Below are positions 3,219 to 5,040 of a DNA stretch of 49,405 bases, piece by piece. The notes beneath the pieces are model-generated. The model saw only the letters and a list, made by a program, of their open reading frames with translations. It did no database searches and was not told the DNA's origin. A program made the translations under genes and the position numbers. Positions within the stretch are counted from its first letter, which is position 1; each line of letters opens with the position of its first letter. This stretch comes from Rubrivivax sp. (GTDB lineage: Bacteria > Pseudomonadota > Gammaproteobacteria > Burkholderiales > Burkholderiaceae_C), in assembly GCA_018780805.1 (NCBI GenBank), contig JADMJD010000100.1, positions 1 through 49,405 on the forward strand, written 5' to 3'.

Positions 3219-4106
3219 ATGGCTGCCGAAAAACGCGTTCGCTTCAAGAGTTGGTGGTTGCCCTGGGTGCTGGTGGCACCGCAGTTGGCCATCGTCATCG
3301 TCTTTTTCTTCTGGCCGGCCGGACAGGCGCTGTACCAGAGCGTGCTGCGTGAAGACGCGTTTGGCACCAGCAGCGAGTTCGTGGGCTGGGAGAACTTCGA
3401 GGCGCTGTTCGCCGACGAGACCTACCTCGCGTCCTTCAAGACCACCGCGGTGTTTTCGCTGCTGGTGGCCACGATGGGTCTGAGCGTGTCGTTGGCCCTG
3501 GCGGTGATGGCCGACCGCGTGGTCAAGGCCTCGGGCGTGTACCGCACGCTGCTGGTCTGGCCTTATGCCGTGGCGCCGGTGGTGGCCGGGGTGTTGTGGC
3601 TGTTCATGTTCGCGCCGTCCATCGGCGTCGTGAGCTTCTGGCTCAACGCGATGGGCTTCGACTGGAACCACCTGCTGGACGGCACCGACGCGATGATCCT
3701 GATCGTGATGGCCGCCGTGTGGAAGCAGGTGTCCTACAACTTCCTGTTTTTTCTGGCCGGGCTGCAAAGCATCCCGAAGAGCCTGGTCGAGGCCGCGGCC
3801 ATCGACGGGGCCGGCCCCTGGCGCCGCTTCTGGACCGTGCAGTTCCCGCTGCTGACGCCAACCACGTTTTTCCTGGTCGTGATCAACATCGTCTACGCGT
3901 TTTTCGACACCTTCGCCATCGTCGATGCGGCCACCAGCGGCGGGCCGGGCAAGGACACCGCGATCCTGGTCTACAAGGTGTATTTCGATGGCTTCAAGGC
4001 CATGGACCTGGGCGGCTCGGCCGCGCAATCGGTGGTGCTGATGTTGATCGTCGTGGCGCTCACGGTGGTGCAGTTCCGATACGTGGAACGGAAAGTCAAT
4101 TACTGA
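3219..4106 (+). CDS. ugpA: Glycerol-3-phosphate ABC transporter permease UgpA
   Basis: 295-residue inner-membrane permease (E. coli UgpA is 295). The first transmembrane segment is at about residues 13-33 (WVLVAPQLAIVIVFFFWP). The binding-protein-dependent permease EAA loop is at about 190 (EAAAIDGAGPWRRF), which contacts the UgpC ATPase. ATG 3219 is chosen; a TTG at 3195 in frame lies inside the terminator stem and is unlikely. No strong Shine-Dalgarno precedes the ATG. Its stop TGA overlaps an ATG (TGATG at 4104-4108) that opens a 25-codon frame leading to ugpE. It pairs with UgpE to form the channel. Confidence 0.94.
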   Translation: MAAEKRVRFKSWWLPWVLVAPQLAIVIVFFFWPAGQALYQSVLREDAFGTSSEFVGWENFEALFADETYLASFKTTAVFSLLVATMGLSVSLALAVMADRVVKASGVYRTLLVWPYAVAPVVAGVLWLFMFAPSIGVVSFWLNAMGFDWNHLLDGTDAMILIVMAAVWKQVSYNFLFFLAGLQSIPKSLVEAAAIDGAGPWRRFWTVQFPLLTPTTFFLVVINIVYAFFDTFAIVDAATSGGPGKDTAILVYKVYFDGFKAMDLGGSAAQSVVLMLIVVALTVVQFRYVERKVNY

Positions 4107-4183
4107 TGTCTACCCCCTACAAGCCTGCGGCTTGGTCCCCCCGAGGGGGATCAGGCTTCTTCGGGCGGCCGAGCGAAGCCTGA
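4106..4183 (+). CDS. Mini-ORF (25 aa) inside REP-like element, bridging ugpA and ugpE
   Basis: ATG 4106 overlaps the ugpA stop (TGATG). The frame encodes 25 residues (MSTPYKPAAW... ending GRPSEA) and stops at TGA 4181-4183, whose last base is the A of the ugpE ATG (again TGATG). It lies wholly in the repeat element. A frame of matching position and similar sequence (PRGGSGFFGRP here; PKGARSGLGRP there) lies between tatA and tatB. I doubt a functional peptide; the likelier role is to carry ribosomes from ugpA to ugpE, which has no Shine-Dalgarno. Confidence 0.35.
   Translation: MSTPYKPAAWSPRGGSGFFGRPSEA
4121..4183 (+). repeat. REP-like structured element, copy A (ugpA-ugpE junction)
   Basis: Three consecutive hairpins. 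AAGCC-TGC-GGCTT is at 4121-4133. CCCCCC-GA-GGGGG is at 4137-4149. TCAGGCTTC (4151-4159) pairs perfectly with GAAGCCTGA (4175-4183) around the 15-nt loop TTCGGGCGGCCGAGC. The last stem contains the A of the ugpE start codon. Copy B (28230-28310, opposite strand) has the same C6/G5 hairpin and the same final hairpin with a near-identical loop. From general knowledge, similar GC-rich intergenic elements are frequent in Comamonadaceae-type genomes. Confidence 0.75.
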
Positions 4184-5040
4184 TGGTCGAGAACCGCCCC
4201 CTCGCGACCACACTGTCGCATGTCGTGCTGGTGCTGGGTGTGCTGATCGTGGCCTTCCCGGTCTACATCACCTTCGTCGCCAGCACGCAGACGGCCGAGC
4301 AGATCGTGCAGAACGTGCCGATGTCGCTGCTGCCGGGCGACAACATCGTGCAGAGCTACAAACTCGCGCTGTTCGGCGGCCAGACGGAGTACGGCAGCAC
4401 CATCGCGCCGGTGGCGCCGATGATGCTGGTCAGCCTGATCACGGCGCTGGTGATCGCGCTGGGCAAGATCGTGATCTCGCTGCTGTCGGCCTTTGCGGTG
4501 GTGTACTTCCGCTTCCCGGGCCGCACCCTCGTGTTCTGGATGATCTTCATCACGCTGATGCTGCCGGTGGAGGTGCGCATCCTGCCCACCTACAAGGTCA
4601 TCTCCGACCTCGGCATGCTCAACAGTTATGCCGGGCTCACGGTGCCGCTGATCGCCAGTGCCACCGCCACCTTTTTGTTCCGCCAGTTTTTCCTGACCGT
4701 GCCGGACGAGCTGGTGGAGGCCGCGCGCATCGACGGTGCCGGCCCGCTGCGCTTTTTCAAGGACGTGCTGCTGCCGCTGTCCAGCACGTCCATCGCGGCC
4801 ATCTTCGTGATCCAGTTCATCTACGGCTGGAACCAGTACCTGTGGCCGCTGCTGGTGACCACCAGCGAAGACATGTACCCGGTGGTGATGGGCATCAAAC
4901 GCATGATCTCCGGCGGCGACGCCGCCACGGAATGGAACGCGGTGATGGCCACCGCGATGCTGGCGATGATCCCGCCGGCGCTGGTGGTGCTGCTGATGCA
5001 GCGCTGGTTCGTCAAGGGTCTGGTCGACGCGGAAAAGTAA
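4183..5040 (+). CDS. ugpE: Glycerol-3-phosphate ABC transporter permease UgpE
   Basis: 285-residue permease (family about 281). The first membrane segment is at about residues 12-30 (VVLVLGVLIVAFPVYITFV), and the EAA loop at about 177 (EAARIDGAGPLRFF). ATG 4183 (MVENRPLATTLSH) fits the family start. The longer GTG-type starts upstream would translate the repeat element. There is no Shine-Dalgarno: the bases before the ATG belong to a 9-bp hairpin stem that also takes in the A of the ATG. Translation probably depends on coupling from the mini-ORF or on hairpin opening. It is followed 11 nt later by ugpC. Confidence 0.93.
   Translation: MVENRPLATTLSHVVLVLGVLIVAFPVYITFVASTQTAEQIVQNVPMSLLPGDNIVQSYKLALFGGQTEYGSTIAPVAPMMLVSLITALVIALGKIVISLLSAFAVVYFRFPGRTLVFWMIFITLMLPVEVRILPTYKVISDLGMLNSYAGLTVPLIASATATFLFRQFFLTVPDELVEAARIDGAGPLRFFKDVLLPLSSTSIAAIFVIQFIYGWNQYLWPLLVTTSEDMYPVVMGIKRMISGGDAATEWNAVMATAMLAMIPPALVVLLMQRWFVKGLVDAEK

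Follow-up and report, generated by a model that had tools for sequence, protein, structure and literature searches.

Two permease genes of a Rubrivivax sp. genome, ugpA and ugpE, are separated by a repeat that folds into three hairpins and carries a stop/start overlap at each end. How this repeat came to lie there, and how ugpE is translated behind it, are the questions raised by the window analysed here, a stretch of DNA of 49,405 nucleotides taken at its full length. According to our analysis, positions 4109 to 4185 are an inserted BRE-like interspersed palindromic repeat, and the 25-codon frame running through it is likely to take ribosomes across, from the stop of ugpA to the start of ugpE. 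We put the probability of this reading at about 75%.

Layout of the ugpA-ugpE junction

The first kilobases of the window hold ugpB, ugpA and ugpE, with an ABC-type ATPase frame behind them; UgpB also scored above its NCBIfam cut-off. The features of the junction are as follows, all on the plus strand.

3195 to 4106, plus strand: ugpA, permease (NCBIfam UgpA, 413.8 bits, cut-off 335)
4103 to 4108, plus strand: CTGATG direct repeat, left copy, holding the first TGATG; single in six relatives
4106 to 4183, plus strand: mini-frame of 25 codons and a TGA through the repeat, peptide MSTPYKPAAWSPRGGSGFFGRPSEA
4109 to 4185, plus strand: insertion of 77 bp, placed to include the right CTGATG; missing in the six relatives with a single TGATG
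4120 to 4134, plus strand: hairpin 1 (RNA fold)
4137 to 4149, plus strand: hairpin 2, CCCCC CGA GGGGG, core of the repeat family (RNA fold, pattern hits)
4150 to 4184, plus strand: hairpin 3, arms 4150-4159 and 4175-4184, loop TTCGGGCGGCCG (RNA fold, copies)
4180 to 4185, plus strand: CTGATG direct repeat, right copy, holding the second TGATG and the ugpE start
4183 to 5040, plus strand: ugpE, permease (NCBIfam UgpE, 410.7 bits, cut-off 297)

The original prediction described, at 4104-4185, two TGATG motifs separated by a 25-codon frame that traverses three hairpins, and this is exactly what the sequence holds. At the first TGATG (4104-4108) the TGA of ugpA (4104-4106) shares a base with the ATG of the mini-frame (4106-4108), and at the second (4181-4185) the TGA of the mini-frame (4181-4183) overlaps the ATG of ugpE (4183-4185). 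RNA folding placed the A of the latter ATG in the last stem, as had been proposed, together with the U of the start codon; both lie in the 3' arm of hairpin 3. The minimum free energy of the element is -44.4 kcal/mol (z -2.11; 3 of 200 shuffles folded as well), and its reverse strand folds ordinarily (z -0.69). A scan of the window with Rfam at gathering thresholds returned a tRNA only.

A lack of a Shine-Dalgarno sequence for ugpE had likewise been claimed, and no clear one was seen before either ATG of the junction. This absence is not distinctive, since matches of at least 4 nt precede 12 of the first and 15 of the second starts in 42 forward copies of the repeat, against 27% of random windows. 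Displacement of a Shine-Dalgarno sequence by the repeat was rejected, first and second starts being alike in this respect.

The junction in related genomes

UgpE was searched for in 48 other genomes of the same genus, and the ugpA-ugpE junction was read in the best 29 of the 48, which gave loci. A single TGATG and nothing more was found in 6 of these best 29 relatives, spacers of 1-39 nt without the repeat in 22, and in the remaining genome, G004, a different and longer element with a 45-codon frame followed by TGACATG. Among the best 29, the relative nearest by UgpE (G040, 97% identical) is without the insertion. Because six relatives have the single TGATG, one of them with a UgpE 97% identical, we interpret the additional 77 bp of the window as an insertion, and the proposal that the repeat entered a junction that already overlapped is borne out by this comparison. 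The empty site in G040 speaks against a conserved regulatory role of the element. The junction has been struck twice, once in the window and once by the independent element of G004 (contig C30, L011).

An ATG overlapping the ugpA stop and followed by a spacer occurs at 9 of the 30 ugp junctions, namely in the window and in eight relatives whose spacers of 16-39 nt are free of the repeat. In all nine the bridging frame has its stop between -12 and +10 nt from the ugpE start, against 5 of 18 alternative frames; we regard this as supporting and not as decisive, because several of the nine are close kin and three sit at the -12 edge. Five junctions of relatives (L017, L018, L026, L029 and L035) show such repeat-free mini-frames of 6-15 codons that end at the ugpE start.

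Copies and hosts of the repeat

Two search patterns built on the second hairpin and the third loop of the repeat gave 68 and 9 hits in the Rubrivivax sp. genome, corresponding to 73 distinct places, and the reversed pattern used as a control gave none. The unit measures roughly 75-90 bp, with start-to-start lengths of 71-89 nt in this genome. The arms of hairpin 3 vary among copies, their outer 8-mers taking 35 different forms in 42 forward copies, and pair perfectly over at least 6 bp in 31 of the 42. With a slightly different pattern, 62 hits were counted in this genome and 0-20 in each of 59 other genomes of the genus. Any hit was found in 43 of the 60 genus genomes, and the comparison of 62 hits here with 3 in G040 suggests a recent expansion.

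Across the Burkholderiales the repeat was present in 38 of 399 genomes, including ten families beyond that of the window, five of which contain a genome with at least 6 hits. Carriers in a plasmid collection (14 records) belong to Burkholderia, Paraburkholderia, Variovorax, Azoarcus and Acidovorax. Five of six Bordetella and Achromobacter genomes contained it, Achromobacter xylosoxidans among them and LUAb4 being the one with none; Achromobacter sp. Root83 is a further carrier. Bordetella genomosp. 5 had 36 hits, with arrays spaced by about 75-77 bp, B. ansorpii 12, B. genomosp. 2 three and B. hinzii one.

Three tandem copies with 74-bp spacing lie beside a sequence that, as judged by eye, resembles an RNase P RNA gene on the opposite strand, in contig C182 of the window's genome (L090, G000 C182:1-1837). 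In the window itself, a structure at about 46820-46903 on the minus strand resembles hairpin 3 in loop and arms but lacks the C-rich hairpin; it may be a partial or decayed copy. In three genomes separate insertions (L004, L253 and L181) occupy one and the same gene junction, one forward and two reversed.

Most scored mini-frames end at the start of the next gene

By the rule applied to copies beside a gene start, the frame that begins with the start codon at a copy's upstream edge has its stop between -12 and +10 nt from the next gene's start. Copies in either orientation were scored automatically on our own codon-usage gene calls, with the first start and the gene start picked blind to frame. 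In this genome 46 of 53 scored copies obeyed the rule, against 11 of 106 alternative frames (Fisher 5.8e-22). The other genomes of the genus gave 30 of 33, a count that contains two ortholog pairs (L239/L249 and L247/L250), against 4 of 66 (Fisher 1.0e-17), and other genera and families 25 of 34 against 9 of 68 (Fisher 2.1e-9). Rows without a score numbered 22 of 75 (including the truncated duplicates L070 and L071), 41 of 74 and 101 of 135, respectively, owing to the lack of an adjacent gene start or of a start codon at the edge, or to an edge that was not found. In a first count of forward copies, 38 of 41 ended their frame at the next start and three were in-frame extensions, compared with 7 of 82 for the two other frames.

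When left and right halves of different copies were mixed, the rule was obeyed by 821 of 1722 pairs (48%) in this genome, 282 of 756 (37%) in the genus and 237 of 650 (36%) elsewhere, compared with 39 of 42 (93%), 26 of 28 (93%) and 20 of 26 (77%) real forward copies; none of 5000 half-mixing permutations equalled the real number in any of the three sets. An ATG at most 14 nt upstream of the C-block was present in 37 of 42 start-adjacent forward copies of this genome versus 5 of 19 unscored ones. At a predicted convergent junction (L055, G000 C79), where no gene follows, the upstream edge reads TGACATAG instead of TGACATG and the start codon is missing.

Copies in both orientations obey the rule, and each of the three frames of the repeat is in use (23, 12 and 4 copies in this genome), so what is preserved is not the encoded peptide, and the constraint lies on the position of the stop. 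A conserved mini-frame peptide was rejected for the same reason.

A second copy in the window lies between tatA and tatB.

28226 to 28315, minus strand: copy of the repeat with a 29-codon mini-frame between tatA (28557-28315) and tatB (28229-27747), TatA and TatB identified by NCBIfam

Here, too, the mini-frame starts in a TGATG and its TGA overlaps the ATG of tatB. In 28 readable relatives the tatA-tatB junction showed, by eye, neither an overlap nor the repeat, with spacers from about 20 nt. Since the relatives have spacers only, the element made the stop/start contact at this junction and did not preserve an older overlap. Two further junctions, nadC-like (L045) and livM-like (L043; names by eye), have relatives without the repeat, the closest with gaps of a few nt.

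Exceptions and copies inside genes

Exceptions to the rule include L006, L073 and L095 in this genome, where another start codon fits L006 by eye, L277, L283 and L306 in the genus (the latter two with early stops), and L181, L220 and L225 elsewhere. In-frame N-terminal extensions in this genome are found at L083, L092 (twice) and L099, and at L077 the upstream gene appears, by eye, to traverse the element and to stop just before the next ATG. The rule is weaker beyond the genus, where most copies, many of the unscored rows among them, lie away from gene starts.

Among the named records, 6 of 12 were scored by the script as stopping at the next start, two of these six at annotated starts (Variovorax sp. 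PBL-E5 and Azoarcus sp. KH32C). L423, L428 and L430 were left unscored by the script, and their stop meets the next start by eye. L425 and L426 run in frame with sdhE and are annotated so in Paraburkholderia largidicola F2. The frame of L427 in Paraburkholderia largidicola PGU16 overruns by about 45 nt into sdhE and is a counterexample.

Copies inside through-running coding frames numbered 35 (1 in this genome, 16 in the genus and 18 elsewhere), a count that is weaker than it appears because its 'spanning' class requires a shared frame, and some copies with a broken frame may be concealed in the 96 rows that have a stop within the region of the element. One more row (L095) changes frame.

Proposed mechanism and alternative explanations

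We posit that a ribosome ending ugpA would restart at ATG 4106, translate through the hairpins, end at TGA 4181 and restart at ATG 4183. Without a bridging frame, an insert of this size would loosen the tie between ugpA and ugpE. Coupling in six gene pairs from two species is reported to have been almost lost with a gap of about 20 nt (PMC10666635). Studies cited in PMC12548453 describe coupling unaffected up to +25 nt and one case coupled at +62 nt, so the bridge may not be strictly needed. Insertions at gene starts would be kept by purifying selection mainly when the upstream frame ends at the next gene or runs in frame into it, with the peptide of the mini-frame as a by-product and the position of the stop as the selected trait. 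The original prediction held that the repeat was retained only where the transfer of ribosomes survived; most scored copies at gene starts do stop at the next start. The hairpins may also tune the yield of UgpE, the metering that the prediction envisaged.

An unlikely alternative is that transcription was selected and not reinitiation. Translation of the frame would then keep the hairpins open and prevent Rho-dependent polarity, and ugpE would start independently. The mini-frame does cross three hairpins, and translation through the insert would also shield the mRNA. The coupling at longer gaps described in PMC12548453 likewise fits this alternative. For such a purpose any stop near the 3' edge would suffice, yet the stops cluster between -5 and +1 of the next start, with offsets of -5, -4, -3, -2 and +1 accounting for 36 of 39 forward copies in this genome.

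We give even less credit to the view that the element is a common GC-rich repeat with a frame kept open by its composition, both overlaps following from the duplicated TGATG without any selection. The element is GC-rich, its six frames are overall not poorer in stops than those of shuffles (76 in this genome against a shuffle mean of 56), and the ugp copy does bear the CTGATG direct repeat. Such direct repeats are not general, however; alternative frames and mixed halves obey the rule far less often than real copies, and the frame still fits the stop although the start-to-start length varies in this genome. The idea that the repeat is poor in stops in all six frames was rejected, as this is true of the sense frames only.

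Translation of ugpE from TTG 4132 within the element, as an N-terminal extension, is very improbable. The ugpE frame is open from this TTG, and the few in-frame extensions at other copies are precedents, but the start at the position of 4183 is an ATG in 26 and a GTG in 3 of the best 29 of the 48 genomes, and residue 1 of the 4183 form is where the match to the UgpE model of NCBIfam begins. Least credible of all is that the mini-frame encodes a functional peptide, or a leader, by which ugpE is regulated; although the frame is open and ATG-initiated in most copies, the use of three frames yields differing peptides, no Pfam family scored above its cut-off and G040 lacks the element.

Relation to known repeats and mobility

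Returning to ribosome transfer through the bridging frame, the closest likeness in principle is to the MIRUs (Supply et al. 1997, as described in PMC12548453), apparently mobile mycobacterial repeats that insert at start codons and hold an internal ORF in a -4 nt coupling with the gene, which probably keeps the harm of insertion low. The Burkholderiales repeat, compared by that description, has the same layout, being inserted at a start codon with an internal frame that ends at the gene start. It differs in belonging to another phylum, in having junctions from -5 to +1 and others, and in using both orientations and three frames.

In size, hosts and arrays, the repeat matches the BRE (Hot et al. 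2011, PMC3110155), which are 75-91 bp long, 69% GC in Bordetella and occur in tandem copies. Their reported hosts are Alcaligenaceae and Comamonadaceae, where they are intergenic, with some copies overlapping ORF ends or lying within ORFs (PMC3110155). Unit length, tandem arrays and the presence in Bordetella and Comamonadaceae all agree, and our family is probably the published BRE, the likeness being one of size, hosts and arrays. Around lexA, the locus used as an indirect test of this identity, no copy was found within 5 kb in five Bordetella species other than B. pertussis, and 2 of 80 lexA loci overall had one. The BRE section of PMC3110155 names neither a function nor any rule on frames, start codons or coupling, and the present frame rule was not found for this repeat in the open-licence PMC literature searched.

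REP sequences are described as short palindromic sequences between or beside genes, and GTAG REPs often supply a TAG stop to flanking ORFs (PMC3733652, PMC12306157); Di Nocera et al. (2013, PMC3733652) count repeats of Bordetella with the REP-like families that have no conserved terminal motifs. The Burkholderiales repeat differs from REP/RAYT systems in being longer and in having three hairpins, and the Y1 transposase family (PF01797) had no match in the window's genome (G000, 92% complete). The label REP-like, used in the original prediction, is thus not appropriate in the strict sense of REP, and mobilisation by a RAYT was rejected on the same result. The repeat carriers G016, G036 and G164 gave no Y1 match either, and G139 and G411, in which one was present, had no pattern hit. 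Rickettsia palindromic elements are about 150 bp long and kept in frame inside ORFs (PMC10969869). Some copies of the Burkholderiales repeat likewise lie within coding frames, but most scored ones in this genome are at gene starts. Because MIRUs share the principle, BRE match in size, hosts and arrays, and no RAYT-type transposase was found, we describe the element as a BRE-like repeat that may work like a MIRU.

Target-site duplication of the MITE type was rejected as a general mechanism, since copies are not in general flanked by direct repeats. Terminal repeats that extend into the start codon came to 3.76 in this genome versus 3.45 in mismatched pairs, a value reached by 148 of 5000 permutations, and to 3.25 versus 3.26 in the genus. 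Individual copies do have them, with 6 bp at ugp, 8 bp at L097 (against the empty site) and further cases at L045, L101 and L250 (one mismatch).

We also considered, as a doubtful extension, that mobile repeats of the Burkholderiales target translation starts through pairing of an inner stem arm with stop/start DNA and are built translation-transparent, a bridge cistron in either direction handing the ribosome on, so that operons would tolerate them. Two pairs of filled and empty sites fit such arm-guided targeting in part. At L097, host DNA in another genus already contains the outer arm GTCACTC, whose complement is found within the element, and at ugp one half of the arm, CTGAT, belongs to the host.

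Implications

Given the frame rule, a repeat that was reported without function becomes a natural experiment on translational coupling, since a single genome offers dozens of junctions with the same kind of structured insert, and most of those scored end their frame at the next start. Annotation can overlook such bridge frames or read them as N-terminal extensions, as with sdhE in Paraburkholderia largidicola F2. The rule indicates which insertions operons tolerate and provides a ready test set for termination-reinitiation beyond model species.
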